From IMG/VR virus record IMGVR_UViG_3300035698_012596, positions 1 to 48,979 of that record: 48,979 nt of DNA; one strand, written 5' to 3'. This DNA is from a virus. Position numbers and translations under genes: made by a program. The notes below the pieces were generated by a model. It was not told the DNA's origin. It was given only the letters and a program-made list of their open reading frames with translations, and ran no database searches. Below, piece by piece: positions 14,618 through 45,076 of this stretch; position 1 is the stretch's first letter; every line of letters starts with the position of its first letter.

Positions 14618-14837
14618 CGTTTATTCCCTTAATCAGTTTAACTGTCCGGATATCAAAAGTTTCAACTGAATTATCAAATTTAATGATACATATTCCTTCT
14701 CCATCGTTTGATTTATTATAACGATAAAGAACACCTGGTACCATATTAGTAATAATATGATTGAATGGAAGATTTAAAAATTCCTCTTCCTTCATGGCTA
14801 ATGGCATATCCAGACTTGATGTTACTTTTCGTACCAT
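14610..14837 (-). CDS. Hypothetical small protein
   Basis: 75 aa. ATG at 14837 overlaps the folE stop (TGATG). It shares an E-E-F-L-x-[IL]-P segment with the 76-aa gene at 13893-14123 and ends in strands 'GEGICIIKFDNSVETFDIRTVKLIKG' suggestive of a small SH3- or Tudor-like barrel. Function unknown; translationally coupled to folE. Confidence 0.55.
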   Translation of the reverse strand: MVRKVTSSLDMPLAMKEEEFLNLPFNHIITNMVPGVLYRYNKSNDGEGICIIKFDNSVETFDIRTVKLIKGINGD

Positions 14838-15733
14838 CAGTCCTTATGACCCTTCATACTCAAACAGATATTATAAAATTCCTGCTTCAAACTGCTATCG
14901 TCACTGAAGTGACCAGTCATAATAGCTGTGGTCATATCGCTTTCATGTTCACGCACACCTCGGTGTGTCATACAGTGATGTTCAGCTTTAACAAGAACAG
15001 CAACATGTTCAGTCTTTGCATATTCTTGCAGGGCATCTGCAATCTGGGTTGTCATCTCTTCCTGAATCTGTGGACGTTCAGCTATATGATGAATTAAGCG
15101 GTTGAATTTTGAAAGACCGATTACTTCATCTTCTGGGAAGATACCAACCCAACATTTCCCCACAATGTTCTGGAAGTGGTGGGCGCATGTTGAGCGTATT
15201 GTGATGGGCCCAGTTGCATACAAACTCTGATATCCCATATTGGGGAAGCTTGTTACCTTGGGTACCGGTGCATAACGGCCAGCAAATGTTTCTTTAACAA
15301 ACATCTTAGCCACACGACGCGCAGTATCATGAGTGTTATGATCGTTCTCCGTATCAATTACAAGGCTTTCAAGTACACCCTGCATCTTTTCTGCTACTTC
15401 ATCAACCAACAGTTCCATTTCATCAGGTTCAATATACTTGCTGATGTTCTGGTTGCTGCGGAATTCCGCACCATCTTGCTTAATGCGATCACGAATAATA
15501 TCTGAAATACTTGATTCTTGAATCGTGTTCAATACGATTAATGAATTTTTAATATCATCTGTATAGTTATCGGAAATTTGTGATGTGTCAATACCATTCC
15601 CTTGGAGGATCTTAAGAGCATTTATAATATCTTGATTTGGTTTATTCATTTCATTTATTTCTCCTATAATATCTTGATTTGGTTTATTCATTTCATTTAT
15701 TTCTCCTATAATATCTTGATTTGGTTTATTCAT
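14837..15733 (-). CDS. folE: GTP cyclohydrolase I
   Basis: 298 aa from the first of three repeated ATGs (15733, 15691, 15649). The C-terminal ~190 residues are FolE: 'CAHHFQNIVG' (zinc Cys/His site; E. coli reads CEHH, so the Glu is Ala here), 'VIGLSKFNRLIHHIAERPQIQEEMTTQIA' in two parts, and 'HHCMTHRGVREHES' with the second zinc Cys. It converts GTP to dihydroneopterin triphosphate, the precursor for folate and 7-deazaguanines. With QueE, QueD-like and DpdA-like genes nearby it probably feeds phage base modification. The N-terminal 100 residues are extra. Confidence 0.85.
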   Translation of the reverse strand: MNKPNQDIIGEINEMNKPNQDIIGEINEMNKPNQDIINALKILQGNGIDTSQISDNYTDDIKNSLIVLNTIQESSISDIIRDRIKQDGAEFRSNQNISKYIEPDEMELLVDEVAEKMQGVLESLVIDTENDHNTHDTARRVAKMFVKETFAGRYAPVPKVTSFPNMGYQSLYATGPITIRSTCAHHFQNIVGKCWVGIFPEDEVIGLSKFNRLIHHIAERPQIQEEMTTQIADALQEYAKTEHVAVLVKAEHHCMTHRGVREHESDMTTAIMTGHFSDDSSLKQEFYNICLSMKGHKD

Positions 15734-25054: not shown

Positions 25055-25885
25055 TTATTTCAAATTATGTTCTCTGATTAGTCGCTCAATTTCTCGATTG
25101 ACATCACCTTCAAATTCATCCTTTGGATTATCATAGATTATTGAATAACCCTCCTTCAGTTTCATATGTACAAAGCTAGATTGTTCCTGCCCCATTTCAA
25201 GAAATCTTAGGTTGTAGTGTTCATCTAGAAACATATCAAATTCAGGCATTTTTTTAATATGATCATACCATCTTAACAAATCAAATGGTTTAGCATTATT
25301 TCGTTCAGTGAGAAACCTATTTGTATATAACGAATTGGTCCAGAATGTTTCCTTCAAATACCCACAATTTCGCAATTCTTTTATAAATGGGCGATGCTCA
25401 TCCGGAATAAATAATTCGCTATATCTTTTCTGGTTCTTAGATACGAAGGCATAAGCGTTGATATGTTTCTGTATGTAGTCATAAGCATGGTCTAAAAGAC
25501 TATTTCGTAATGTTTGTACCTGATTAGTTAATTGTTGAAGGTGTTGAAGGTGTTGGTTGTGTTGCTGTATTTGTTGTTTTATTGCTATTTCCATTTGTTG
25601 TTGTTCTCGACGATCAATTGCTGCAAAATCAGAGCATTCATCCGAGTGCATCAGTTTGAGCATGACAAAAATCTCTTTGAACATGTCATTGGCGTTTTCA
25701 TCATCCACTAAGAGGAATTTTTGAAAATAGAAATCAAATTCTCTCTGATCTACAATTTGGTCACTAAGAAGGGAACGAATTCGTTCTTCGAATTTTTCGT
25801 AATTGCTGAGTTGGGGATTTTCATCATCACTGAATAGTGTTGAACTTGTTTTATACATAATACCGGAATTGCTCATAAGCGCCAT
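25055..25885 (-). CDS. Paralogue 1 of a three-gene family (LKLxxSDxCxDF)
   Basis: 276 aa, ATG overlaps upstream stop as TAATG. N-terminal part: 'RSLLSDQIVDQREFDFYFQKFL' then 'MFKEIFVMLKLMHSDECSDF'; middle Gln/His-rich coiled coil (QQIQQHNQHLQHLQQL); C-terminal domain 'YIQKHINAYAFVSKNQKRY'. The same order is seen in the next gene upstream (25885-26745), showing tandem duplication. No known domain recognised. The LKL segment is reminiscent of, but distinct from, the FKLxW family elsewhere in this window. Confidence 0.65.
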   Translation of the reverse strand: MALMSNSGIMYKTSSTLFSDDENPQLSNYEKFEERIRSLLSDQIVDQREFDFYFQKFLLVDDENANDMFKEIFVMLKLMHSDECSDFAAIDRREQQQMEIAIKQQIQQHNQHLQHLQQLTNQVQTLRNSLLDHAYDYIQKHINAYAFVSKNQKRYSELFIPDEHRPFIKELRNCGYLKETFWTNSLYTNRFLTERNNAKPFDLLRWYDHIKKMPEFDMFLDEHYNLRFLEMGQEQSSFVHMKLKEGYSIIYDNPKDEFEGDVNREIERLIREHNLK

Positions 25886-26745
25886 TATATCAATCCCTTT
25901 TCCTTCACAATATGTTGAATTTTTTCTTGTATTTCACACTTGACCAGCATACATAATTCATCGTTTTTGGTATTTTCTGGCAGATTTAATTGTTGCCCAA
26001 ACAATATGTTTTCGTTTATTTCTTTGAGTTTCAAATTCATAGAATATTCTCGGAAATTTTTTGTAGCGATTGAGTCTTGTTGTGAATCTCGCCAATTGAG
26101 TCTACAGAATTCCGGTGATGTCCTGGGTGGACTATTTGCGTAGACATTGGTAATTGATAATTTTGGATTCAATCCCCACCAGCTATGTTTTATATAATTG
26201 CAACTCTGTAGATGTAATATATGTTGTTGGTCAAATATATTATACAGATCTTCATGTGTGTATTTGTTATTGTTTTCACTTATAAATTGGTAAATTTCGA
26301 TATGTTTTAAAATCCAAGCCATTTTTTCTTCGATGAAATCAGGCCTAGCGGTTTTCAATCTTTCTATACGTTCAAGACGCTTTTGTTCCTTTTCTTGTTC
26401 CCGCAATTTAGCGGCGGTACGAGCCCTATTCTCCATACCCACATAATCGGGACATTGGTCTGAATATTGCAATTTAAGTAGAACAAATAATTCTTTAAGA
26501 ATATCATCGACATTGGGATCTTGATGCTCAACAAATCTGTCCAGATAGAAACGCAATTCATCGTGGTGGAGATTGACGACATCGTTCATCCGTTTTCTCA
26601 ACGATTCTAATGTATGTTCAACTGCAACCTTTTCCATACGTTGTTTCCTCTTTTTCGCCTGAGCTTGCGTTTTTTTACGTTGAGCAGCCGCATATTTTCG
26701 ACCGTATTTTAGTTCACCGAACATATTATAAACTAAGTAATGCAT
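25885..26745 (-). CDS. Paralogue 2 of a three-gene family (LKLxxSDxCxDF)
   Basis: 286 aa (ATG at 26724 just after the upstream stop is an alternative start). Basic N-terminus (AAAQRKKTQAQAKKRKQR), then 'NLHHDELRFYLDRFVEHQD', 'ILKELFVLLKLQYSDQCPDY', a charged coiled coil (KLREQEKEQKRLERIERL), and 'WILKHIEIYQFISENNNKY'. Aligns with paralogue 1 through both the LKL and the I-x-K-H-I-x-x-Y-x-F-[IV]-S segments. Function unknown; possibly DNA- or protein-binding given the basic start. Confidence 0.65.
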   Translation of the reverse strand: MHYLVYNMFGELKYGRKYAAAQRKKTQAQAKKRKQRMEKVAVEHTLESLRKRMNDVVNLHHDELRFYLDRFVEHQDPNVDDILKELFVLLKLQYSDQCPDYVGMENRARTAAKLREQEKEQKRLERIERLKTARPDFIEEKMAWILKHIEIYQFISENNNKYTHEDLYNIFDQQHILHLQSCNYIKHSWWGLNPKLSITNVYANSPPRTSPEFCRLNWRDSQQDSIATKNFREYSMNLKLKEINENILFGQQLNLPENTKNDELCMLVKCEIQEKIQHIVKEKGLI

Positions 26746-27083
26746 TTTGTAAGTTGTTTTGGTTCATAAAATTAACTAATTTTTGTACATCTGATTTACT
26801 TATGTTACCATTAGAATCTCGGTATTTTTCTTTTTCCTTAAGAATGATTTCTTTTTCTTCTTTTAATTTTTTGTCTTCATAAACGAAATCCGGACATGAA
26901 TCTCCCCCATTGTAATTTAAGAACAAGAAATAATTTTCGAATTGCCTCATCTGTCATATCATCTTCATTTTTGACAAATTTCTCCCAGAAGAATTCTATT
27001 TCTCCGGGGTCTATCTTTAAGAGTTGGCTAACTTTTGCAATAAGCAAATCGTAACAATCTGTTTTTACTGGTTTATACATCAT
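26726..27083 (-). pseudogene. Paralogue 3, frameshifted at a G5 run
   Basis: Starts at ATG 27083 (GGAGG 6 nt upstream), reads 'DDMTDEAIRKLFLVLKLQWG' and then leaves the family pattern and stops at 26877. One base less in the GGGGG run near 26909 restores '...LKLQWGDSCPDFVYEDKK' and continues to 26726. Both siblings have LKLxxSDxCxDF here, so the shift is well supported. Even if repaired it is short (~118 aa) and lacks the C-terminal domain. It may be a pseudogene, a +1 programmed shift, or a sequencing error. Confidence 0.7.
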
Positions 27084-29225: not shown

Positions 29226-29519
29226 CTATAAAAGCCTAATAGATTTAAATTTTGATCGAACATTAAGTTTCAAATACACAATTAACGCACCAGGGTTACC
29301 TGTTTCAACTATGAAAGAACTGACCACACTTTTGAATTTTGCACCATTAAGCCACTTGGGAACCTTCTTCTGTAGAACGCCGTTCGTCTTGCTATGATTC
29401 CCTTGACCGGTTATAACCCTTACTTTGTCTTCTCCTTGAGCTTTGAAAACCAGTAATTGCTTGGATAGGAACACTTGTGCTTCAGTCTGATTCTTTCCAT
29501 GGAGATCAATTTCTTTCAT
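29226..29519 (-). CDS. Smr-domain protein
   Basis: 97 aa from ATG 29519, which overlaps the upstream stop as TAATG. 'KEIDLHGKNQTEAQ' and 'VRVITGQGNHSKTNGVLQKKV' are the two signatures of the Smr fold (LDLHG and TGxGxHS). Smr domains nick DNA or RNA; bacterial examples include the MutS2 C-terminus and mRNA-cleaving SmrB. Here free-standing, so possibly an RNase or a branched-DNA nuclease used early in infection. Confidence 0.78.
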   Translation of the reverse strand: MKEIDLHGKNQTEAQVFLSKQLLVFKAQGEDKVRVITGQGNHSKTNGVLQKKVPKWLNGAKFKSVVSSFIVETGNPGALIVYLKLNVRSKFKSIRLL

Positions 29520-30046
29520 TACAAGCAAGCCAATTTAAAGTTAACAGCGTCCTGGGGATCAACAAACAAAAAACCAACACATATAACTTTTTCTTCTGTT
29601 GTTTCCGTAGTGGTAACAGATGATCTGTTAAAAAATTTACCTATTGTTCGTTTTTCAGTTTTTTCGACTGTTGCTTCTTTGGTTGATTGATAATGACAAA
29701 TATAAACATCCTTAATTAAATTATCATCATGCAACCAATCCCAAATTCTATCTGTTTTATTTTTTTCGACCAAGTCACTAAGTAGTAGTTCAATTGATCG
29801 ATCGCTGTTACTTTCGCACGGAACAACTCCGCCCTCTTCCAATAAACCTAAACGCCGAATTGCCCACCATTCGGCTGGGTGGTGGTGAAATACATCAAGA
29901 CCACCATTGCTTCTTTCTAATTTCTTTTTATTATCCTTAGTTCTTTCGTTCTGGCTTTTAATGTAATCCATTGCACCAATGGTTGATTTCGGTCCCATAT
30001 ATGAATTATTATTAGAAATATCAATAAAAATTGGTTTACCTGACAT
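29519..30046 (-). CDS. FKLxW-family protein, long form 1
   Basis: 175 aa from ATG 30046 (AAGGAAAG upstream). Clear paralogue of the next gene upstream (30058-30570): 'AEWWAIRRLG', 'DRIWDWLHDDN', 'DVYICHYQST' and a C-terminal 'VGFLFVDPQDAVNFKLACL'. The W-L-H-D-[DE]-N plus D-A-x-x-F-K-L ending is the same module as in the small proteins at 32-34 kb and 41-45 kb; the ~85 N-terminal residues with WWxIRR are specific to this pair. Function unknown. Confidence 0.65.
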   Translation of the reverse strand: MSGKPIFIDISNNNSYMGPKSTIGAMDYIKSQNERTKDNKKKLERSNGGLDVFHHHPAEWWAIRRLGLLEEGGVVPCESNSDRSIELLLSDLVEKNKTDRIWDWLHDDNLIKDVYICHYQSTKEATVEKTEKRTIGKFFNRSSVTTTETTEEKVICVGFLFVDPQDAVNFKLACL

Positions 30047-30057
30047 CAATCTTTCCT

Positions 30058-30570
30058 TTACATACAAGCTAATTTAAATGTGAGTACATCCGTTTCTTCC
30101 ATAAAAACAAGTCCCATGCATGGGACCTTAATTTCCTCGGTATTTTCTTTATCACTTTTCGAGAAAAATGCACCACCCACGGACCATTTTTTTGTTACTT
30201 CGATATTAACGGTTTTGGCATAATGGCTTACATAAATGTCTCCGCTGAAATTTTCTTCATCATGCAACCAATCGTAAATTCTGTCACATCGGTCCTGATC
30301 TTCGAGTTCCTTTATTGGTATCTCCACGCATTGAGTAATATTAACAGCACCGCCCGGAATTAGTTTATTACTGGCCCTACGCCTGCGAATATCCCACCAT
30401 GATTTCGGATCATCAAAGAATAAATCTTTTGATTTTTGTTTCTTCGCCCACTCAGTGCTATTTTCCAGGGTATGTTTGTTATTCTCTATAAAATCCATAA
30501 CCTTTTGGATCGTCGCGGGACCTTTGTAATTATGAACATCATAGATACTAACCCAATGAACTGTTCCCAT
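30058..30570 (-). CDS. FKLxW-family protein, long form 2
   Basis: 170 aa. Paralogue of the preceding entry: 'KSWWDIRRRRAS', 'DRIYDWLHDEENFSG', 'DIYVSHYAKT', ending 'VFMEETDVLTFKLACM'. First gene after a TTGACT...TATACT promoter, so probably early. The N-terminal segment (VHWVSIYDVHNYKGPATIQKV) is matched by 'FIDISNNNSYMGPKSTIGAM' in its partner. No enzyme motif seen. Confidence 0.65.
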   Translation of the reverse strand: MGTVHWVSIYDVHNYKGPATIQKVMDFIENNKHTLENSTEWAKKQKSKDLFFDDPKSWWDIRRRRASNKLIPGGAVNITQCVEIPIKELEDQDRCDRIYDWLHDEENFSGDIYVSHYAKTVNIEVTKKWSVGGAFFSKSDKENTEEIKVPCMGLVFMEETDVLTFKLACM

Positions 30571-32482: not shown

Positions 32483-32731
32483 TCAAGTGCTACTTCGGCG
32501 ATGCTTTTGTAATATCAGTTCTGGAAAGGTTAGTTTTAGTTGGACAATTTCATCTTCTAACAAATCGAATAGAAAATATTGTAAATGATATTCTTTATTG
32601 ATTGATTTGTTCGTGTATGTCCAACGCTGTTCATTAAAGACAACCGAAAACGGACCAATATTGCTTCTAAGCCAATAATTTAGTTCCGAGCGATATATAC
32701 AACTAAAAGGTATTATAAAACTCCAGTCCAT
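32483..32731 (-). CDS. FKLxW-family small protein (LKLxFP subtype)
   Basis: 82 aa. 'LNYWLRSNIGPFSVVF' matches the family's W-L-x-x-N helix, and 'LLEDEIVQLKLTFPELIL' its terminal motif in the LKLxFP form shared by the four genes upstream of it. A basic tail (QKHRRSST) follows. ATG is directly after the upstream stop. Last gene of the 35052-32483 operon. Confidence 0.65.
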   Translation of the reverse strand: MDWSFIIPFSCIYRSELNYWLRSNIGPFSVVFNEQRWTYTNKSINKEYHLQYFLFDLLEDEIVQLKLTFPELILQKHRRSST

Positions 32732-32974
32732 TTAAGTGTCCATTGTTCTTATATCAAGAAAAGGAAATACCAATTTCAATTTCACAATGTCTTCATATGG
32801 CACATCGCGCAGTTTGTATCGATAATAGATCGTTTTATAATCGTTAAATGTACTTGCTCGATTTTCTTCATAGAATGAAAATTCCCAAGAATGTTTTTTA
32901 AAATTCTCAAGCATCCAACGACAAACTTGTTCATCTTGCGATGAAAAACTTTCCTCTATATCAAAATAATACAT
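32732..32974 (-). CDS. FKLxW-family small protein (LKLxFP subtype)
   Basis: 80 aa. 'VCRWMLENFKKHSWEFSF' and 'RDVPYEDIVKLKLVFPFLDI' align with the neighbours on both sides. Between them lies a strand 'YKTIYYRYKL' found in the same place in three siblings. Acidic. Unknown function. Confidence 0.65.
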   Translation of the reverse strand: MYYFDIEESFSSQDEQVCRWMLENFKKHSWEFSFYEENRASTFNDYKTIYYRYKLRDVPYEDIVKLKLVFPFLDIRTMDT

Positions 32975-32987
32975 TTATATACCCATA

Positions 32988-33224
32988 TTATTCCTGAACT
33001 ATCTCAACCAATGGAAATGTTAATTTCAACTGTGTTAAAATTTCACCATCAATATCAGTAAGCGTGTACTTAAAATTAAATTTAGAACCAAGCCCATCAA
33101 AATCGTCATTAAGTTTAGTCATACCGGAATAGAACCATTCTCCTGAATAATTTTCAGTTAACCAAAAACATAATTCTAATACTTCATACTGTGGCTCTGC
33201 TGGTATATTAATATGACACTTCAA
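32988..33224 (-). CDS. FKLxW-family small protein (LKLxFP subtype)
   Basis: 78 aa. 'LCFWLTENYSGEWFYSG', 'SKFNFKYTL' and 'GEILTQLKLTFPLVEI' give the family order helix, strand, terminal motif. Its start overlaps the upstream gene's end by 17 bp. Unknown function. Confidence 0.65.
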   Translation of the reverse strand: MKCHINIPAEPQYEVLELCFWLTENYSGEWFYSGMTKLNDDFDGLGSKFNFKYTLTDIDGEILTQLKLTFPLVEIVQE

Positions 33225-33438
33225 TTTCGACCCCCGTAATATTAATTTCGGGAAAATTTAGCTTGAAATCAACTATAAATTCGATAGTTGCTTCCCTAAA
33301 TTCATAGGTCCAGCTCAAGTCCATACTATATACGAATCCCCAATTATTAACCATTTCTGGATATGTACTATTAACCCATTCATCGATTTGTTTTTGAATA
33401 CTTATGGGATTTTTTAACAATGTGAATTGATATTTCAT
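33208..33438 (-). CDS. FKLxW-family small protein (LKLxFP subtype)
   Basis: 76 aa from ATG 33438, overlapping the upstream stop (GGATGA) and preceded by TGTGGGG. 'IDEWVNSTYPEMVNNWGFVY' and 'IEFIVDFKLNFPEINI' match the family; this member bridges the LKLxFP and FKLxW forms (F-K-L-N-F-P). Unknown function. Confidence 0.62.
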   Translation of the reverse strand: MKYQFTLLKNPISIQKQIDEWVNSTYPEMVNNWGFVYSMDLSWTYEFREATIEFIVDFKLNFPEINITGVEIEVSY

Positions 33439-33884
33439 CCCCACACCATTTTAAATAATGCAGCATCGGATTCACGAAAAAACAAATAGCCGCCATGCCG
33501 TGTCGCCCAATCATATCTCCACGTTAATCTATTTTCGCCAACTTGTTCTAAGAGCCACTTTTGTATTTGTATTTTTTTATCAACATCCAACGTGTAATCC
33601 AATACGACCTGATACATATTTGGTTGGTATGGTATCGGATCCTTGCACCAATTCATTCTAAATAGCATAGCGTCATAATCAGTTTCAAACAGAATATGCA
33701 TAAAGCTTGCGTTCTCTTGATAAGCGTCTTCACAATCGATATCAAACCTGTTCGAAAGATTTTTTTCAAGCCACTCTTCGATATCATTATAAAGTTCTAA
33801 AATATAAAGATTATTTCGACGATCCTCAAATTTCTTCTCATAATGATCAAACTCGAATATTTCTATCGGAACAGAGTAAGTCAT
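33435..33884 (-). CDS. FKLxW-family protein with two fused modules
   Basis: 149 aa, double the usual size. First module: 'DIEEWLEKNLSNRFDI' to 'ETDYDAMLFRMNWCKD'; second: 'KIQKWLLEQVGENRLTW' to 'RESDAALFKMVWG'. Each has the W-L-x-x-N helix and the D-A-x-L-F-[KR]-M-x-W ending, so this is an in-frame tandem duplication or fusion. ATGA overlap with the upstream gene. It gives the clearest internal proof that the motif defines a domain. Confidence 0.72.
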   Translation of the reverse strand: MTYSVPIEIFEFDHYEKKFEDRRNNLYILELYNDIEEWLEKNLSNRFDIDCEDAYQENASFMHILFETDYDAMLFRMNWCKDPIPYQPNMYQVVLDYTLDVDKKIQIQKWLLEQVGENRLTWRYDWATRHGGYLFFRESDAALFKMVWG

Positions 33885-34162
33885 TCTTCACCTTTAGACC
33901 AAACTAACTTGAACATTACAAAATCTTCGTGTAGTTCAAAACCAAATTCCATCTCACCATCAGCATACATTTTACCCACAGTGTTTTCTTTACACCATTG
34001 GATCATTTCTAGCTCAATCTCTTTCATCTTACCGTCTAGTAACGACCTGCCGTTCCCGTGGAAGCAGTATTCATCCCACAAGTCAATGTAATGCGGACAA
34101 GAGTCATAATCATAATGCTTTTTAATTTTTTGTTGCTCTTCTTTAATGATATAAAACTGCAT
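33881..34162 (-). CDS. FKLxW-family small protein
   Basis: 93 aa. A 50-residue N-terminal extension (IIKEEQQKIKKHYDYDSCPHYIDLW... in part) precedes 'MIQWCKENTVGKMYADG' and 'GFELHEDFVMFKLVWSKGEE'. The W-C-x-E-N form links it to the 42-44 kb block. Unknown function. Confidence 0.65.
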   Translation of the reverse strand: MQFYIIKEEQQKIKKHYDYDSCPHYIDLWDEYCFHGNGRSLLDGKMKEIELEMIQWCKENTVGKMYADGEMEFGFELHEDFVMFKLVWSKGEE

Positions 34163-34184: not shown

Positions 34185-34400
34185 TTATTCGAACTCAACG
34201 GACGGAAACGTGTTCTTCAATTCATCGAGCAAATCCACAGAAACGTTTTTCAACGTATAGCGAGTATAAAACACTTTTCTGCCCACCCAGTCCCATTTGT
34301 TGTATGTCACACTGAATTGTCCACGAAAATTTTCGCAGATCCATTTGTTGATTGCCATTCCATTACGGTCTGTGCGAGAAACATTAAATTGAGTAATCAT
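34185..34400 (-). CDS. FKLxW-family small protein (divergent end)
   Basis: 71 aa. 'AINKWICENFRGQFSVTYNKWDW' is typical; the end 'VDLLDELKNTFPSVEFE' is a degenerate LKLxFP. Its ATG overlaps the stop of the metallopeptidase-like gene (GCATGA). Unknown function. Confidence 0.62.
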   Translation of the reverse strand: MITQFNVSRTDRNGMAINKWICENFRGQFSVTYNKWDWVGRKVFYTRYTLKNVSVDLLDELKNTFPSVEFE

Positions 34401-35936: not shown

Positions 35937-36599
35937 TTAGCAGGCTTCGCCGCTGGTACTTGCTTCGATAATCTGCGTTACCAGTTCCATTTGCGTAAGT
36001 AGAACATGTTTGATGTTTTCATATGCGGGTTCTTGTTCAACCCACCGTTTCCTAGCAGATTTTAGCATTGGAAGAATGTGATCATCAGTCTCCTGAATAT
36101 ATGATTCTTGTTTCTTGATACTAAACACACCACCCATACTTTGGTGATTATGCATACGATCGCATCCTTTGGCGATGCTTGCAATGGGGTCTTCGATCAT
36201 TTCCAGATAATAACCCACCAACTCTTTCTTTACACCATCAACCTGGTTGGTCATGAGTTCTACTCCCCGAAGTATCCGGGCAACTTGTTTATCGGTTGCC
36301 CTCGCATCGTTGACCAACATATGTTCGACATCGACGAGTGTAACAGATGTATCTTCGACGAGATCGTGCATCGCGATCGTTGCATATGTTTCTTCTGGAT
36401 GCATTAGAATCTTGTCCAATGTCCGAGCGAAGTTCATCTGACTAATTTGGTGCTGAAATTCCGGCGTTACACCGTCCTTACGAAAACCATTATGGTAATG
36501 CTTCGCATATTCCATGCTGGTATAAGCAACCGTATATCCACGCCCCAATAGCCAGTATCTAATGGCGGTTTTGATTGTTTCGTAATTTTGCGTTTTCAT
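35937..36599 (-). CDS. HD-domain (p)ppGpp hydrolase-like protein (SpoT/MESH1 type)
   Basis: 220 aa. Follows the RelA/SpoT hydrolase pattern: 'KHYHNGFRKDGVTPEFQHQI' (H-x-G-x-x-R-x-x-G...H), 'IAMHDLVEDTSVTLVDVE' (H78-D79, E82-D83) and 'SIAKGCDRMHNHQSM' (K-x-x-D-R-x-x-N). There is no synthetase domain. Small alarmone hydrolases remove the 3' diphosphate of ppGpp; in a phage this would blunt the host stringent response. It is divergent from phage pstS, with Pho-box-like repeats between them. Confidence 0.72.
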   Translation of the reverse strand: MKTQNYETIKTAIRYWLLGRGYTVAYTSMEYAKHYHNGFRKDGVTPEFQHQISQMNFARTLDKILMHPEETYATIAMHDLVEDTSVTLVDVEHMLVNDARATDKQVARILRGVELMTNQVDGVKKELVGYYLEMIEDPIASIAKGCDRMHNHQSMGGVFSIKKQESYIQETDDHILPMLKSARKRWVEQEPAYENIKHVLLTQMELVTQIIEASTSGEAC

Positions 36600-36696: not shown

Positions 36697-36825
36697 CGGC
36701 TATTAAGATTTTGTTTATCAGCTCTTTTTGAATATATTTTAAGCAAAAATAACGTTATAGTATAAAAATGCTTAATAAATAATTTTGAGGGAATATGCCC
36801 TTAGTTTTTAATGGAGATAGAAAAA

Positions 36826-37839
36826 ATGAAGAAAGTATTATTGACAACACTAATACTATTAGCATCTGTAGGAATGACGGGTGTAGTACAAGCAAGAGAC
36901 CAAATTAAGATTGTTGGATCATCAACGGTTTATCCTTTTTCAACAACAGTAGCAGAACGTTTTGGTAAGACTACCAATTTTAAGACCCCGGTCGTAGAAT
37001 CAACTGGATCAGGTGGTGGATTTAAACTATTTTGTGCTGGCAACGGAACAGAACATCCAGATTTTACCAACGCCTCCCGCGCAATTAAGAAATCTGAAAT
37101 TGAATTATGTGCCAAAAACGGTGTTAAAAATATCCAAGAAGTTGAGATTGGATTTGATGGGATTGTTATCGCCAACGCAAGGGACGCATACCAATTCAAC
37201 CTCTCCTTGAAGGACGTATTTCTTGCACTGGCAAAATACATTCCTGATGAGAATGGGAAGCTTATTGAAAACCCAAACGTAACCTGGAAAGATATTCGTT
37301 CTGATTTACCAGCAGTAAAGATTGAAGTCCTTGGTCCTCCACCAACATCTGGCACGCGCGACGCGTTTGTTGAGCTTGCTATGGAAGGTGGAGCCAAGCA
37401 GATACCGTTCCTGAAAGACTTACGCAAAACAGATAAGAAAAAGTTCAAAACCATTGCTCACAGTTTAAGAGAAGATGGTATGTTTATTGAAGCTGGCGAA
37501 AATGATAACCTTATCGTACAAAAATTGGTTGCTAATCATTCAGCACTAGGTATTTTTGGTTTTAGTTTCCTTGATAACAATGGAGATGTCGTTAAAGGCA
37601 CAGTCATCAATGAAAATAAACCAACATTTGAAAACATCTCCTCAGGTGATTATCCTTTATCAAGACCACTTTTCTTTTATGTTAAGACGAGTCATATTGG
37701 TAAAATTCCAGGAATACAGGAATATGTTGATATGTTTGTAAGTGATAGCGCGTCTGGAGATGAAGGATATTTGACTGATAAAGGTCTCATCCCATTACCA
37801 GAAGACAAGCGTACAAATATGGTTAGGGAAATTAAGTAA
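36826..37839 (+). CDS. pstS: Periplasmic phosphate-binding protein
   Basis: 337 aa from ATG 36826 (GGAG 9 nt upstream; the earlier ATG at 36811 has no site). Signal peptide 'MKKVLLTTLILLASVGMTG' then V-V-Q-A, cleaved before RDQIKIVGSST. Phosphate-contact loops visible: 'GSSTVYPFSTTVAERF', 'ESTGSGGGFKLFC' and 'PPPTSGTRDAF'. PstS captures phosphate for the host Pst transporter; viral pstS is known from marine phages, where it is tied to phosphate stress. A good terminator follows. Confidence 0.93.
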   Translation: MKKVLLTTLILLASVGMTGVVQARDQIKIVGSSTVYPFSTTVAERFGKTTNFKTPVVESTGSGGGFKLFCAGNGTEHPDFTNASRAIKKSEIELCAKNGVKNIQEVEIGFDGIVIANARDAYQFNLSLKDVFLALAKYIPDENGKLIENPNVTWKDIRSDLPAVKIEVLGPPPTSGTRDAFVELAMEGGAKQIPFLKDLRKTDKKKFKTIAHSLREDGMFIEAGENDNLIVQKLVANHSALGIFGFSFLDNNGDVVKGTVINENKPTFENISSGDYPLSRPLFFYVKTSHIGKIPGIQEYVDMFVSDSASGDEGYLTDKGLIPLPEDKRTNMVREIK

Positions 37840-39859: not shown

Positions 39860-40231
39860 TTAGAATTTTTCATACTTATCTTTTAGTCGGGAATGATCCC
39901 ATGTCATTTTAAACCAAACAGCGAGTTCACTATCATTGGTATAAAACCGAATAACGCATTCTTCATGGTTGATCCGGAATGGTATATCTCCGAGCTTTAT
40001 CTTATCATTGTGCTCCATAAGAATTTTCAAAACTTCCTGAGCAAAATCTTCTTCAGGCATGGGTTTAAACCCGTATGGCTCACATGTAAACCTGCAATCA
40101 CCGTCGGGTCCGCATGTACAGAACTCATCGCTGCTGGTCCTAAATTCAAGAGAATATTTATATCCCTCAGGATCCTCGATGTCACATCGATATTTCGGTG
40201 GGTTTTCTTCTGAATTAACTTCTAAGAACAT
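39860..40231 (-). CDS. FKLxW-family protein, Cys-containing variant
   Basis: 123 aa. The C-terminus 'IRFYTNDSELAVWFKMTWDH' fits the family, with a basic tail after it; the usual W-L-x-x-N helix is replaced by 'EVLKILMEHNDKIKLGD'. The N-terminal half has a Cys cluster (EFCTCGPDGDCRFTC) that might bind a metal. Overlaps the NADAR stop by 10 bp. A divergent member. Confidence 0.58.
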   Translation of the reverse strand: MFLEVNSEENPPKYRCDIEDPEGYKYSLEFRTSSDEFCTCGPDGDCRFTCEPYGFKPMPEEDFAQEVLKILMEHNDKIKLGDIPFRINHEECVIRFYTNDSELAVWFKMTWDHSRLKDKYEKF

Positions 40232-40707
40232 TGGTTTCTAACCTCCATAAGTATGACACCCAAATGATTTGCTCCAAGCTTGCCGTCACAAGCATCACAG
40301 GAACAATCTCCCCAAAAATTATCGTGCCATTTATTCCCCTCGATGATTGGAACATCACCAGTCATCTTGAGTAATTCCTCCAGAAAGGGATCTTTAAATT
40401 TCTGTTCAACCAAACTCTTCATGACGCGAAACTTGATCTGTTCCCAGTCTTTTCGAATAGGTGCAGGTGCATTCTTTCCACCTAATCTTTTCGCCTGACC
40501 AGAAGTTAAACTGCTTTGGCGGAATCGTTTTCTGATGTCTAGATCGACAAATTTGGCGGCTTGGTATGCATGTTCAACTGACGCATAAACGGCCGGAGAT
40601 TCATCGTCTAGTGTTACCTGAAAGTTATCCCGGAGCATCCAGAAACTAGATAACCACTGGAAATCACCATCAAAGCTATCAATAATATCGAAATCAGTCT
40701 TTGTCAT
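40222..40707 (-). CDS. NADAR-domain N-glycosidase-like protein
   Basis: 161 aa from ATG 40707 (the frame extends to 40788 but that part overlaps a better-supported small gene). Signatures: 'FQWLSSFWMLRD', 'VYASVEHAYQAAKFVDLDIR' (SVEHxxQAxK), 'WEQIKFRVMKSLVEQKF', 'NKWHDNFWGDCSCD' and 'NHLGVILMEVR'. NADAR/YbiA proteins cleave N-glycosidic bonds; several remove ADP-ribose from guanine in nucleic acid and so counter DarT-type toxins. In this phage an anti-defence role is plausible. Confidence 0.82.
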   Translation of the reverse strand: MTKTDFDIIDSFDGDFQWLSSFWMLRDNFQVTLDDESPAVYASVEHAYQAAKFVDLDIRKRFRQSSLTSGQAKRLGGKNAPAPIRKDWEQIKFRVMKSLVEQKFKDPFLEELLKMTGDVPIIEGNKWHDNFWGDCSCDACDGKLGANHLGVILMEVRNQCS

Positions 40708-40828
40708 TTTTTTCTTTTGGCATTGAGACGAATACGGTGATGAAACCGTCATCCTCAATTTCCTTATTTGATGGCTGAAAACCAACAATCTTTTTTACTT
40801 TATCGTTCTTTTTGGTTGTTTTATTCAT
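40694..40828 (-). CDS. Small hypothetical protein upstream of NADAR gene
   Basis: 44 aa: starts MNKTTKKNDKVKKIVGFQPS, then 'DDGFITVFVSMPKEKND'. AAGGAGATC 5 nt before the ATG is one of the best ribosome sites in the region. Overlaps the NADAR start by 14 bp, so probably translationally coupled. It explains why the NADAR start should be at 40707. Confidence 0.62.
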   Translation of the reverse strand: MNKTTKKNDKVKKIVGFQPSNKEIEDDGFITVFVSMPKEKNDKD

Positions 40829-41175: not shown

Positions 41176-41463
41176 CTAGACATCGTCAAAGCTCATCTTG
41201 AATAATGCCGCATCTTCTTCTTTGGTAAAAACAAAAGAACGACCATGTTTAATAAGATAATTATCACTAGGGTCGACTCTATGGCATTGATATGTTGACC
41301 ATTCTCCCAAATATGAAATACGAAATTGTTCACGACACCAATCGCTTGCAGATACGCAATCATGATATAACTCAAATACCCATTTCATCCCGCCCATGCC
41401 ATCTGGAACAATAGAGCATCTTCCTTCTGTTGTATTACTACTCCGTCCCATAAAACCTACCAT
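41176..41463 (-). CDS. FKLxW-family small protein
   Basis: 95 aa. 'SASDWCREQFRISYLGEW', 'GRSFVFTKEEDAALFKMSF' (family ending with SF for W). N-terminal 35 residues are Gly/Met-rich. The ATG overlaps the stop of the truncated relative upstream (GGATGGTAG); an internal ATG four codons on is also possible. Confidence 0.63.
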   Translation of the reverse strand: MVGFMGRSSNTTEGRCSIVPDGMGGMKWVFELYHDCVSASDWCREQFRISYLGEWSTYQCHRVDPSDNYLIKHGRSFVFTKEEDAALFKMSFDDV

Positions 41464-41612
41464 CCTCCAATATCTATTAAATTATACAAACACCAATCAT
41501 ATAATATATCTTCATCTTCTCTTGTAAATTCATCAATAGGAGAAAAATGATAATCAAAATGTTCCCAATTTTTAAACCATTTCCGTCCTAAAACAAACGC
41601 ACACTTAGTCAT
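41457..41612 (-). CDS. Truncated FKLxW-family relative
   Basis: 51 aa. 'DILYDWCLYNLIDIGGW' corresponds to the W-C-L-x-N helix of its neighbours, but the frame stops there and the strand plus D-A-x-x-F-K-L-x-W end is absent. 'CAFVLGRKWFKNWEHFDYHFSP' precedes. ATGACTAA overlap with the upstream gene. It may be a remnant or a short functional form. Confidence 0.5.
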   Translation of the reverse strand: MTKCAFVLGRKWFKNWEHFDYHFSPIDEFTREDEDILYDWCLYNLIDIGGW

Positions 41613-41865
41613 TGGCCCATATCAACTTAAATAATGTAGCTTCCTCAGCCAACAAAAATGCATATGTTCGGCCCCCGGAATGATTATCACCGAATTCCCA
41701 GAAAGTCCAACTACCTTCTATGTTTTCTATAATCCAATTCTGTATATTGGTAATATTTCTATTAAGATTGGGGTTATAAATAACAACAGAAATATAACCA
41801 TAATCCATTGGTAATCGCTTACGTCGATCTCCACAAATGGCTCTGATGGAAATATAACGTGTCAT
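41605..41865 (-). CDS. FKLxW-family small protein
   Basis: 86 aa. 'IQNWIIENIEGSWTFWEFGD' and 'YAFLLAEEATLFKLIWAND'. Its ribosome site is formed by the last codons of the upstream paralogue (TGGGGATAAAATG). Basic N-terminus (ICGDRRKRLP). Confidence 0.66.
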   Translation of the reverse strand: MTRYISIRAICGDRRKRLPMDYGYISVVIYNPNLNRNITNIQNWIIENIEGSWTFWEFGDNHSGGRTYAFLLAEEATLFKLIWAND

Positions 41866-41866
41866 T

Positions 41867-42301
41867 TTATCCCCATGCTATAATAAAAGCTAATGCATCG
41901 ACTCTCCGTAGGAAAAACACATTAACTGAAGTCGTTTCTATTGTGTGGTCTGGGTGATAAATCATCCAACCCTTTGGCATGTCTTTGCGACGTCTGTCTG
42001 TACTATCAGGAACATAGTCATTAAGCCACGCAATGACTTCTGGCTTTAGGGTAGTATGATAATCGTAATTTGTGTATTCAATACCATCGATTACTGTGGG
42101 GCGATGAATGGTCGATTCTCGTTTTATTTTTGTAACGCATCGTTGCCATTCGTCAATGCCATGTTGAGAATATTTCCCCAATTCTTCAACTGGGCAATTT
42201 TCAGGAAACATATTTATGGAAACAATATGCCCATAATCATAATGTTTTGTGGGATCAACCAATGGTTTAATAACAAAATAATTTCCCCTGGAATATTCCA
42301 T
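41867..42301 (-). CDS. FKLxW-family protein, extended
   Basis: 144 aa from ATG 42301 (TAATG overlap, GGAA upstream; the longer frame to 42352 is inside the previous gene). About 75 extra N-terminal residues ('YDYGHIVSINMFPENCPVEE') precede 'VIAWLNDYVPDSTDRRRKD' and 'VNVFFLRRVDALAFIIAWG', where F-K-L has become F-I-I. Confidence 0.63.
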   Translation of the reverse strand: MEYSRGNYFVIKPLVDPTKHYDYGHIVSINMFPENCPVEELGKYSQHGIDEWQRCVTKIKRESTIHRPTVIDGIEYTNYDYHTTLKPEVIAWLNDYVPDSTDRRRKDMPKGWMIYHPDHTIETTSVNVFFLRRVDALAFIIAWG

Positions 42302-42576
42302 TAATTGTTTCCTTCCCAACGCAACTTGAAACTTAATGCATCTTCGTAACATTCAAATTCAGCCTGTCGAGAATATGACCAGATTATTCGACCCTTCATT
42401 GTGTGTCGATTTTCCGAAAACCATTCACTTACGCCGTGTTGTTCTTCATCCCAAGTCAAAACGGTATTAATTTCAAAACCATAGGATTCAAGACGTTTCT
42501 GCACTTCTGATCTAGATTCGTCGTCTTGAAAATACTTTATAAATTCATCGACATTATAAGCTGTAATTTCCATCAT
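42301..42576 (-). CDS. FKLxW-family small protein
   Basis: 91 aa. N-terminal helix 'NVDEFIKYFQDDESRSEVQK', then 'VSEWFSENRHTMKGRIIWSY' and 'EFECYEDALSFKLRWEGNN'. All family positions are present. Confidence 0.66.
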   Translation of the reverse strand: MMEITAYNVDEFIKYFQDDESRSEVQKRLESYGFEINTVLTWDEEQHGVSEWFSENRHTMKGRIIWSYSRQAEFECYEDALSFKLRWEGNN

Positions 42577-42591
42577 TAAATCCCAATTTAA

Positions 42592-42807
42592 TTACCACGT
42601 TAATTTGAACAAAATATAATCTTCTTTGAGCTCAAAGAAGATGAGCGGCTTTCCTCTTCTCCAATCATTAATATACCACAATCCGGTTAAATTGTCAATA
42701 CACCATACATAAACATGACAACCAAAAAGTGAGTCGGATCTTCTATAATCATCTATTTCAGTGAAAATTGAGCATTTAAAATATTCATCTGGGCTGGCTA
42801 TGGGCAT
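42592..42807 (-). CDS. FKLxW-family small protein
   Basis: 71 aa, close to the minimal module: 'YVWCIDNLTGLWYINDWRRG' and 'IFFELKEDYILFKLTW', where the protein ends on the motif itself. Confidence 0.66.
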   Translation of the reverse strand: MPIASPDEYFKCSIFTEIDDYRRSDSLFGCHVYVWCIDNLTGLWYINDWRRGKPLIFFELKEDYILFKLTW

Positions 42808-42808
42808 A

Positions 42809-43096
42809 TTAAACCCAAGTCAATTTAGCTAGAGCAGCGTCTTCTTCTGAATAAAAATAAACTGTTATTTTAGTTTCATTATGCCATATATCATGTTCAA
42901 CAAATGCTACTTTATTAGAACAATTCTCTAAACACCAATCTCTAAAATGGGCATATTCTTTGAATTCCTCAGGCTTTCCTCGATATAAAACGACTTCGTA
43001 TTTTATACCACTAAACCATCGAACTTGTTTAATAACGGGGTCTATACTAGAATTCTCGCCTACCTCATAAATTCTAAAATCATCTAAGGAGATCAT
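42809..43096 (-). CDS. FKLxW-family small protein, twin of the next gene
   Basis: 95 aa. 'ISLDDFRIYEVGENSS', 'KQVRWFSGIKYEVVL', 'FRDWCLENCSNKVAFVEHD', 'ITVYFYSEEDAALAKLTWV'. Aligns along its whole length with the gene at 43093-43383, so a recent duplication; both have A-K-L in place of F-K-L. Confidence 0.68.
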   Translation of the reverse strand: MISLDDFRIYEVGENSSIDPVIKQVRWFSGIKYEVVLYRGKPEEFKEYAHFRDWCLENCSNKVAFVEHDIWHNETKITVYFYSEEDAALAKLTWV

Positions 43097-43383
43097 TGAT
43101 TATCCTCCCAAGTTAGTTTAGCCAAAACTGCATCCTCTTTGGAATAGAAAAATACTACAATTTTAATATTACCGTAAGAATCAAAATTGTAGAATACAAC
43201 TTTGTTTGTACAGTTTTCTAAACACCAATCCTTAAATTGAATATGAAAATGAAACTCTCGATCAGCGTTAGCGAGATCAACCCTGTACCCAGTTCCGGTA
43301 ATCCAACGGATTTTCTTTAGTGTTTCTTCTCCATTATCGTGGTTACATTCGTATATATGAAAGTCTTCTTCTTTAATCGTCAT
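43093..43383 (-). CDS. FKLxW-family small protein, twin of the previous gene
   Basis: 96 aa from ATG 43383 (overlap of 11 bp with upstream gene; chosen because MTIKEEDFHIYE aligns with the start of the twin). 'KKIRWITGTGYRVDL', 'FKDWCLENCTNKVVFYNFD', 'IVVFFYSKEDAVLAKLTWE'. Confidence 0.68.
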   Translation of the reverse strand: MTIKEEDFHIYECNHDNGEETLKKIRWITGTGYRVDLANADREFHFHIQFKDWCLENCTNKVVFYNFDSYGNIKIVVFFYSKEDAVLAKLTWEDNQ

Positions 43384-43651
43384 TTGATTCCCATTGTATC
43401 TTAAATAATATTGAATCTTCCTTATTAGCAAATGCGAAAACAGTTACATCTTGTACGCCCATAGCAGCGTAAGATGCCGATGAATCCCATAAATTAAAAT
43501 CACCGGAACAATTTTCTTTGCACCAATTAATAATTTCCTGACATAAATTGCTTCCTGTATCAAAATCAAAAGAACCATGAGCATATTCTAGATGTATATA
43601 GCGTGGATTTCTGTAATATAACAATCCCGTATTAAGTTGATGAAGTTTCAT
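43373..43651 (-). CDS. FKLxW-family small protein
   Basis: 92 aa. 'IINWCKENCSGDFNLWDSSA' and 'VFAFANKEDSILFKIQWE' with an acidic tail. N-terminal strands 'NTGLLYYRNPRYIHLEYAHG'. Confidence 0.66.
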   Translation of the reverse strand: MKLHQLNTGLLYYRNPRYIHLEYAHGSFDFDTGSNLCQEIINWCKENCSGDFNLWDSSASYAAMGVQDVTVFAFANKEDSILFKIQWESNDD

Positions 43652-43655
43652 CTTC

Positions 43656-43859
43656 TTAACCCCACATCATTTTAAATAAACTTGCATCTTCTTCGTTGCG
43701 AAAATAAAAATTACAATCGCAGAATTCGGCTTTACCACGCCATTTCCTAGGTTTATCAACATTCCCTTCTTTACCAAGATTGGTATTGCACCATTGTTTT
43801 GCTTGGGAAAATTTATTCCTATCAAACTCAACGTGGACGACATGATGATATTGTTCCAT
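43656..43859 (-). CDS. FKLxW-family small protein, minimal form
   Basis: 67 aa. 'FSQAKQWCNTNLGKEGNVD' and 'NFYFRNEEDASLFKMMWG'. ATG follows TGGGGATAA of the upstream paralogue by 1 bp, so that W-G-stop serves as its ribosome site. Confidence 0.66.
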   Translation of the reverse strand: MEQYHHVVHVEFDRNKFSQAKQWCNTNLGKEGNVDKPRKWRGKAEFCDCNFYFRNEEDASLFKMMWG

Positions 43860-43860
43860 T

Positions 43861-44127
43861 TTATCCCCACATTATTTTGAACAAAATTGCATCATCTATA
43901 TTGTCGAAAGTATATTTATATATGAAGCCGCTTCGTCCATTTTCATATTCAGATATAGTGTAATTGTTAATGTCATTACAAAATAACCATTTTTTGGCAT
44001 CAAAATAATCAAAGTTCCAGTGATTCTTTTCTTCATTAAAGAAATCATAGATCATAACTTCAAATGATTCTTTAAATAAAAAACGTTTAAAACTACGTAA
44101 ATGGTTCATAAGACGATCAATAAACAT
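43861..44127 (-). CDS. FKLxW-family small protein
   Basis: 88 aa from ATG 44127, again directly after TGGGGATAA. 'DAKKWLFCNDINNYTISEYE' and 'YKYTFDNIDDAILFKIMWG'. Basic N-terminal helix (MNHLRSFKRFLFKES). Confidence 0.66.
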   Translation of the reverse strand: MFIDRLMNHLRSFKRFLFKESFEVMIYDFFNEEKNHWNFDYFDAKKWLFCNDINNYTISEYENGRSGFIYKYTFDNIDDAILFKIMWG

Positions 44128-44128
44128 T

Positions 44129-44398
44129 TTATCCCCATACCATTTTGAACCAAATTGCATCATCTTCTAATTCAAAACCAACTAACCATTGCGGTTGGAA
44201 GATTCGATCTCTCCATAATCCCCGTGCATTTTCAACAAGCCATTCATGACCACCGTTTGTCCAGCTTAAACCGGGAACAACGACTTTGAATTCAGGATTC
44301 CATTTAAGCGTCACCCCTCTTGCAATTTCAGCAGGATGCAAAATCTTAATATCACCAAAGCCTTCCTTTTCTAGATCAATTTCTCTTCGGCATTCCAT
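44129..44398 (-). CDS. FKLxW-family small protein
   Basis: 89 aa from ATG 44398 (GGCGGAG 12 nt upstream; the frame is open to 44443 within the previous gene). 'GHEWLVENARGLWRDRIFQP' and 'LVGFELEDDAIWFKMVWG'. Confidence 0.65.
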   Translation of the reverse strand: MECRREIDLEKEGFGDIKILHPAEIARGVTLKWNPEFKVVVPGLSWTNGGHEWLVENARGLWRDRIFQPQWLVGFELEDDAIWFKMVWG

Positions 44399-44402
44399 GT
44401 TA

Positions 44403-44765
44403 TTAATAATCTCCGCCGAATTGAAGCTTAAACGCAATGGCATCCGATTGTTCAGGAAAATACAAATTATTCAAATCCATAAAAACTTCACTTGAACCAT
44501 TTTCAGGATCATTAAGCCATTCGATAATTTCAGGATCCTCTAAGCGATATTTTGGATAATCTCCGGCGCTTGGGTTCTTAGCTTCTTTTACTTCCATATC
44601 AAGAATACCATGCTTGGTTTCATGAATGAAATCTCCGGAGATTTCATTATCATCATCGACTGCAACCGAGGCGGTAAAAATCAATTGCATGATAGTTGAC
44701 CCTGGCTTTAAGGCAACCGCATAATACTCTTTACCATTAATTGTTTTTGTTTCTATGTTACCCAT
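44403..44765 (-). CDS. FKLxW-family protein, extended
   Basis: 120 aa. The first 75 residues form an added beta-rich part ('KEYYAVALKPGSTIMQLIFT'); then 'PEIIEWLNDPENGSSEVFMD' and 'NLYFPEQSDAIAFKLQFGGDY'. ATG overlaps the upstream stop by 13 bp. Confidence 0.65.
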   Translation of the reverse strand: MGNIETKTINGKEYYAVALKPGSTIMQLIFTASVAVDDDNEISGDFIHETKHGILDMEVKEAKNPSAGDYPKYRLEDPEIIEWLNDPENGSSEVFMDLNNLYFPEQSDAIAFKLQFGGDY

Positions 44766-45076
44766 GTTAATTTAAACTCCACTGCTTCTTCTTGAGATTC
44801 AAAATATATTGATGGACCATTATAACTAAAATGCCCAAGGACATAACGATATTGACAATTATCTCGCAACCATTGGCGGACATCATCCCGCCAATCGTAC
44901 AACATATGGAACATAATCAGATCGCTATCATAGCCAACTTCAACTTCAATCATTCCCTTAACATTGTCTACCGCTTTTTCTCTTTTTGGAACTTCATTCT
45001 TCGTGTACCAGAACAATTGGTTATCGAAGATAAAAAGAAAAAGTTTTTGTATTGACTGTGGTATTGCAAATATCAT
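44753..45076 (-). CDS. FKLxW-family protein, first of the 45-41 kb block
   Basis: 107 aa. Hydrophobic start (IFAIPQSIQKLFLFIF), then 'DVRQWLRDNCQYRYVLGHFS' and 'PSIYFESQEEAVEFKLTWVT'. ATGA overlap with the lipoprotein gene, so coupled to it. Confidence 0.65.
   Translation of the reverse strand: MIFAIPQSIQKLFLFIFDNQLFWYTKNEVPKREKAVDNVKGMIEVEVGYDSDLIMFHMLYDWRDDVRQWLRDNCQYRYVLGHFSYNGPSIYFESQEEAVEFKLTWVT

Follow-up and report, generated by a model that had tools for sequence, protein, structure and literature searches.

In the window analysed here, the complete 48,979-base IMG/VR contig IMGVR_UViG_3300035698_012596, fourteen successive small genes (positions 41176 to 45076) were confirmed by sequence comparison as real tandem genes belonging to one family, here called FKLxW after its terminal motif. 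The family appears to be new, being absent from Pfam, PHROGs, and NCBIfam, none of whose families drew a match at E ≤ 0.01 from two or more of 120 members. As far as searched, it seems to be confined to giant T4-related phages, where one 561-kb phage devotes roughly a quarter of its genes to it and the cultured Sinorhizobium phage Phosso at least 43, so that much of the unexplained gene content in one group of giant phages is a single, extremely diverged family. Sequence comparison places the window in a giant T4-related phage, the nearest relatives of its DNA polymerase B being those of Phosso (44.5%) and Agrobacterium phage Atu_ph07 (43.5%).

Profile evidence, conserved core, and predicted fold

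All 24 open reading frames (ORFs) named in an earlier sequence-only reading of the window were recovered in place on the minus strand (M1 to M24, Table 1). The fourteen genes of the array, all of them matched by profile, are separated by gaps of at most 15 nucleotides (nt) or overlap, a spacing that appears as in a single operon. BLASTP between window members already connected many of them, with M7 and M8 as the best pair (47% identity, E 1e-25). A profile seeded with 13 window members alone was run against G001, a phage contig of 561,116 bases (IMGVR_UViG_3300046616_000314). At E < 1e-3 it detected 145 ORFs there but none among shuffled copies of the same ORFs, so that a chance origin of the likeness is excluded; the iterated profile detected 262 G001 ORFs, again compared to 0 shuffled copies. 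For a non-circular test, the terminal helix and all G001 sequences were excluded from training. The resulting profile revealed 31 ORFs at E < 0.05, all 31 of them members, and no shuffled copy, and at E < 1 it revealed 100 ORFs, including 95 members, together with 2 shuffled copies. Since members were matched after removal of the motif, the similarity extends past it, and the concern of the sequence-only reading that the likeness might end at the terminal motif does not hold for canonical members.

Within the window, M1–M12, M14, M17, and M18 matched the family profile (helix-1 Trp and the strand-helix half with FKLxW) at E < 1e-6, and M13 only when read across its TAG codon. This gene (41457–41612) had been taken for truncated. 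The ORF is indeed short, but it is part of a whole member with an in-frame TAG at 41457, past which the frame encodes ...EDALLFQMAWAG before reaching a stop; in full, the read-on sequence is VLWDGVVIQQKEDALLFQMAWAG followed by a stop. Recoding of TAG was considered and rejected: as other window genes terminate at TAG, this codon more probably arose by recent nonsense mutation or from an error in the sequence.

Conservation among the 120 aligned members was concentrated in a few positions, namely W54 (118 members), F81 (96), A87 (98), F90 (114), K91 (92), L92 (95), and W94 (108), with Y/F38, E85, and D86 as a second tier, while most remaining columns displayed an entropy of 3–4 bits, which is near maximal. 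The first Trp is located in helix 1, the first Phe in strand 3, and the A, F, K, L, and W of the motif in helix 2; we infer that the conserved positions, which sit in helices and strands, are mostly buried. Apart from this core, nearly all positions vary freely, as do the N-terminal extension and the spacing between the Trp of helix 1 and the terminal motif (mostly 22 to 51 residues). A single position carried Cys in 65 of the 120 members, with no conserved Cys set. Members were mostly 65–120 amino acids (aa) long; some of 165–230 aa (e.g., L044:3053-3556 and L057:4887-5417) resemble a fusion of two diverged domain copies within one ORF, and no fusion to a known domain was recognised among the longest members, as judged by eye alone.

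AlphaFold2 modelling of M8 on the 120 aligned members predicted strands at residues 33–39, 63–70, and 74–81 and helices at 42–58 and 84–94, thus a beta-alpha-beta-beta-alpha order corresponding to a ferredoxin-like topology minus the final strand. Ten-residue means of the predicted local distance difference test (pLDDT) were 78–93 from residue 41 onwards and poor for residues 1–23 (overall 70; predicted template modelling score (pTM) 0.59). For M20, a representative of a divergent subfamily (see below), a model built from only four sister sequences reached a mean pLDDT of 88.8 and a pTM of 0.74, with the order beta-alpha-beta-beta-alpha-beta, so that M20 is predicted to have the complete topology. 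The two separate models share their fold, in agreement with the small alpha/beta, perhaps ferredoxin-like, fold proposed from the sequence, and did not turn out as unrelated folds. Foldseek against the PDB matched M20 to proteins of the ribosomal S6, PII, and CutA type (probability up to 1.00, E 0.0025 or weaker) and revealed no significant match for M8. The top viral structure matches of M8 were uncharacterised small phage proteins, three of them from Atu_ph07 among the best 50 listed; the best, BFVD proteins of Atu_ph07 and uncultured Caudovirales (e.g., A0A2L0UZT1 and A0A6J5L5R8), showed 25% identity over 67 columns and are only suggestive, since their E-values are 0.02–0.06 and none has an assigned function. 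M7 displayed a sub-threshold match to RRM_5 (E 0.14).

Distribution, growth, and turnover

Using the 120-row profile at E ≤ 0.01, at least 150 matches were found in G001, 67, 75, 72, 25, and 39 in contigs of 465, 436, 415, 369, and 296 kb, respectively, and 3–19 in each of the shorter contigs. A greedy, approximate gene count for G001 assigned 249 of 937 genes (about 27%) to the family, arranged in runs of 39, 20, 18, 12, and 11 genes besides many lone or paired copies. Among cultured phages, Phosso had 58 matches at E ≤ 1 (43 at ≤ 1e-3), Atu_ph07 seven (six at ≤ 1e-3), Pseudomonas phage PA5oct four (three at ≤ 1e-3), and Paride three. The profile search revealed none in Vibrio phage 2.275.O, PBECO4, SCTP-2, pT24, KVP40, Melnitz-2, and ACG-2014d, and a single weak partial match each in Bacillus phage G (E 0.016) and Muenster. 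In the annotated stretches that were viewed, member genes were labelled "hypothetical protein" or left unannotated. A DNA pattern for EDAxLFKLxW occurred in 49 stretches of viral contigs; in about 85,000 prokaryote genomes it gave eight matches, a number near chance, none of which was a member over the domain. On the basis of this one exact pattern, cellular homologues were rejected, two of the eight aligning briefly at the C-terminal motif only. No close relatives of M8 were found in viral contigs.

The arrays grow by local copying. In G001, the best BLASTP match of a member was the adjacent gene 43 times, compared to 1.3 times expected (maximum of 6 in 500 position shuffles), which shows that arrays expand by tandem duplication; this, together with the M7/M8 pair and the two-domain M18, bears out the earlier suggestion of a family diversified via duplication. 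Copy number was likewise found to change strongly between related phages: in related contigs with a common gene order, numbers differed and some copies had no orthologue. Such copies and the broken M13 are signs of turnover.

Diversification by positive selection, which the sequence-only reading had also put forward, was not borne out. The ratio of nonsynonymous to synonymous substitution rates (dN/dS; Nei-Gojobori method, several dS values being close to saturation) was 0.02–0.47 for orthologue pairs, far below 1 and like that of neighbouring genes; pooled values were 0.10–0.26 for members versus 0.08–0.21 for other genes. Members are thus real protein-coding genes kept by purifying selection, and it is entire copies that come and go, in place of rapid change within a copy; selection at specific sites or right after duplication may still occur. 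One core member of the family (L013:4959-5186, plus strand) was 81–99% identical across the compared pairs of related phages, and its orthologue, 49% identical, is located near clpP in PA5oct, Paride, Callisto, and their relatives.

In regard to gene junctions, neighbouring members in G001 overlapped by exactly 10 nt in 64 of 156 pairs. The idea that the terminal Trp codon provides the start of the next gene was rejected, as the overlap is explained by the longest-ORF rule: a start within ATGA, 4 nt from the end, frequently lies in frame with the longest ORF. An A before TGG was found in 34 of 60 cases ahead of another member and in 17 of 30 cases elsewhere, thus no more commonly. By eye, a TGG-GG was noticed, a putative ribosome-binding site for the following gene. 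TGA was the stop codon in 161 of 247 G001 members (L085-L113) compared to 53 of 196 long ORFs of the same phage, an excess partly due to the frequent ATGA start-stop overlaps in arrays. A T4-type late promoter (TATAAATA) in the window was rejected, as it occurred at chance level.

Possible functions of the copies

Phage accessory genes of this sort usually serve host takeover and counter-defence. Tentatively, and with slightly less than even confidence, we read each copy most likely as a specialised small binding protein for one of these tasks. Specialised binders would fit a fixed core combined with a free surface and copies that are many, phage-only, born and lost in tandem, and retained by purifying selection. 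The small proteins, with a predicted ferredoxin-like fold, multiply by tandem duplication into tightly packed arrays. According to this proposal, each copy, translated from the common array mRNA as a separately specialised protein, would bind and then block or redirect a different host protein. New copies would be born by duplication, diverge on their variable surface, be held by purifying selection, and be lost once useless. It is possible, though rather doubtful, that giant phages hold in this way a repertoire built on one scaffold of conserved core and variable surface, with hundreds of copies, each fitted to a separate target among host or defence components. Several points weigh against specialised binders: orthologues lack the raised dN/dS expected from a continuing arms race; the member L013:4959-5186, kept from environmental phages to PA5oct, looks like a constant phage function; and the absence from bacteria depends on a single exact DNA pattern.

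The predicted fold says little on function, as the ferredoxin-like fold is too widespread. The predicted topology of the divergent subfamily is that of ribosomal S6, PII, and CutA, but no sequence similarity to FKLxW members was found and canonical members have no last strand. An alternative is that members are RNA-binding or regulatory proteins, whose RRM/S6-like fold would bind mRNA, rRNA, or tRNA and whose copies would tune the translation of different transcripts, as does the single-copy RegA of T4. The S6 proteins at the top of the solved-structure matches, the many Phosso members among tRNA and translation genes, and RegA of related phages, described as a regulator with an RRM fold (PMC7824862), count in its favour. 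We consider it unlikely, however, as the same match list includes PII and CutA, the fold is common to many unrelated functions, members carry a slight negative net charge (about −1.4 per 100 aa), and no conserved surface motif was seen, save possibly the helix 2 Lys. DNA mimicry was rejected, the net charge of the members being unremarkable. A role as adaptors that deliver host proteins to a phage or host protease (ClpP, FtsH, or Lon) would fit the position of the most conserved member near clpP in L013-type phages and PA5oct, but is very improbable: most arrays are not beside a protease gene, and linkage to clpP as a general rule was rejected, since it does not hold in Phosso or Atu_ph07.

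Small decoration, internal, or injected proteins in many variants would be another way to account for the family, and for Atu_ph07, a relative, mass spectrometry reported 112 extra virion-associated proteins (PMC6102473). A copy number between 3 and about 260 would be odd for structural parts, and the three members in PA5oct bear no mark from electrospray ionisation tandem mass spectrometry (ESI-MS/MS) while several neighbours do, a weak point, as small proteins are easily missed; all in all, virion proteins seem improbable. Clear tandem duplication and the broken M13 would also be expected of nearly neutral filler, i.e., tandem duplicates that pile up because extra DNA is tolerated or favoured by headful packaging when the capsid is large; Hua et al. 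2017 proposed such a ratchet for jumbo phages that carry arrays (PMC5646251). Against pure filler weighs the dN/dS of orthologues, which are under purifying selection as strong as that of other genes, and core residues are retained across hundreds of copies, so that we give this explanation little probability.

Expansions of this kind have been described before. Arrays of over 30 similar genes in tandem are present in phages G and 121Q (PMC5646251), resembling our case in tandem duplication as a source of giant-phage genome growth. As G gave a single weak partial match and PBECO4, which stands in for 121Q, gave none, these arrays are not of the FKLxW family as tested, and FKLxW copies differ in their extreme divergence, in being scattered as well as arranged in tandem, and in their number of up to about 260 per genome. 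Bacillus phage G also harbors about 35 zinc ribbons, termed unprecedented (PMC7824862), likewise a case of one small domain multiplied in a single jumbo-phage lineage, but the domain is another; the FKLxW family has no conserved Cys set and has reached a size several times greater. In a 2026 review of jumbo phages, only arrays of the G/121Q type are cited (PMC13282480). Within the open-licence papers covered by our literature check, the FKLxW family appears new, and its expansion is of a known kind but on a far larger scale.

The majority of giant-phage genes lack known relatives. Jumbo genome size and the roles of small orphan genes hereby become one question, testable in cultured phages such as Phosso (Sinorhizobium meliloti) or PA5oct and Paride (Pseudomonas aeruginosa), the latter two with just three or four copies. 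Should the members serve host takeover or counter-defence, one phage would hold an exceptionally large repertoire of such proteins; should they form a scaffold repertoire, it would be a phage counterpart to the big expanded effector families of other parasites.

Window members, divergent candidates, and neighbouring genes

Table 1. FKLxW members and candidates in the window. The training set of the profile included window members; the motif-trimmed, G001-free profile served as the non-circular test.
Gene	Position	Strand	Length (aa)	Description	Evidence
M1	44753..45076	-	107		profile E 1.2e-15
M2	44403..44765	-	120		profile E 1.8e-7
M3	44129..44443	-	104		profile E 1.1e-10
M4	43861..44163	-	100		profile E 3.5e-10
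M5	43656..43859	-	67	minimal copy	profile E 4.3e-15
M6	43373..43651	-	92		profile E 2.1e-16
M7	43093..43431	-	≤112 (start uncertain)	recent duplicate of M8	47% identity to M8, E 1e-25 (BLASTP)
M8	42809..43096	-	95	structure predicted	profile E 1.2e-18
M9	42592..42807	-	71		profile E 6.9e-14
M10	42301..42576	-	91		profile E 1.3e-9
M11	41867..42352	-	≤161 (start uncertain)	C-terminal domain	profile E 4.3e-8
M12	41605..41865	-	86		profile E 1.1e-13
M13	41385..41612	-		broken	translation and profile match across in-frame TAG
M14	41176..41463	-	95		profile E 1.4e-9
M15	39860..40231	-	123	probable member	profile E 0.002 among window ORFs
M16	34185..34400	-		divergent subfamily, LKLxFP type	sub-profile; hhalign E 0.002
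M17	33881..34162	-	93	canonical	profile E 3.4e-10
M18	33435..33884	-	149	two canonical domains in a single ORF	domain E 8.7e-14 and 1.1e-10
M19	33208..33444	-		divergent subfamily	sub-profile
M20	32988..33224	-		divergent subfamily, full fold predicted	pLDDT 88.8, pTM 0.74
M21	32732..32974	-		divergent subfamily	sub-profile
M22	32483..32731	-		divergent subfamily	sub-profile
M23	30058..30570	-		paralogue of M24; family membership not established	BLASTP to M24; profile
M24	29519..30067	-		paralogue of M23; resembles the family in the terminal motif only	17 aligned columns

Outside the array, membership is less uniform. M15 is a weak yet plausible, probable member. The seven further genes proposed at 34400–32483 are present but of two kinds: while M17 and M18 are canonical, the other five (M16 and M19–M22) form the divergent subfamily, ending in LKLxFP followed by one extra strand. 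Sequence ties this subfamily only weakly to the family (hhalign E 0.002 with a probability of just 13%; E 0.003–0.007 by hidden Markov model in a set of 24 proteins), and its predicted fold agrees with that of canonical members. M23 and M24 (29519–30570), likewise proposed as members, are clearly paralogous (34% identity, E 1e-28). M24 reached a profile E of 0.026 among window ORFs, with an alignment confined to 17 terminal-motif columns; as the likeness is limited to these columns, the concern about the terminal motif does hold for this pair, and its membership is not established.

Three adjoining genes at 25055–27083 on the minus strand, seen by eye to carry an approximate LF[VL]xLKLQ[WY] after a D-rich segment, are possibly a second small duplicated family, unmatched by the FKLxW profile. 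Pfam assigned further window neighbours to a NADAR domain (40222–40788), a periplasmic protein of the phosphate-binding type (36811–37839), HD_4 (35937–36599, below the cut-off), and GTP cyclohydrolase I (14837–15733).

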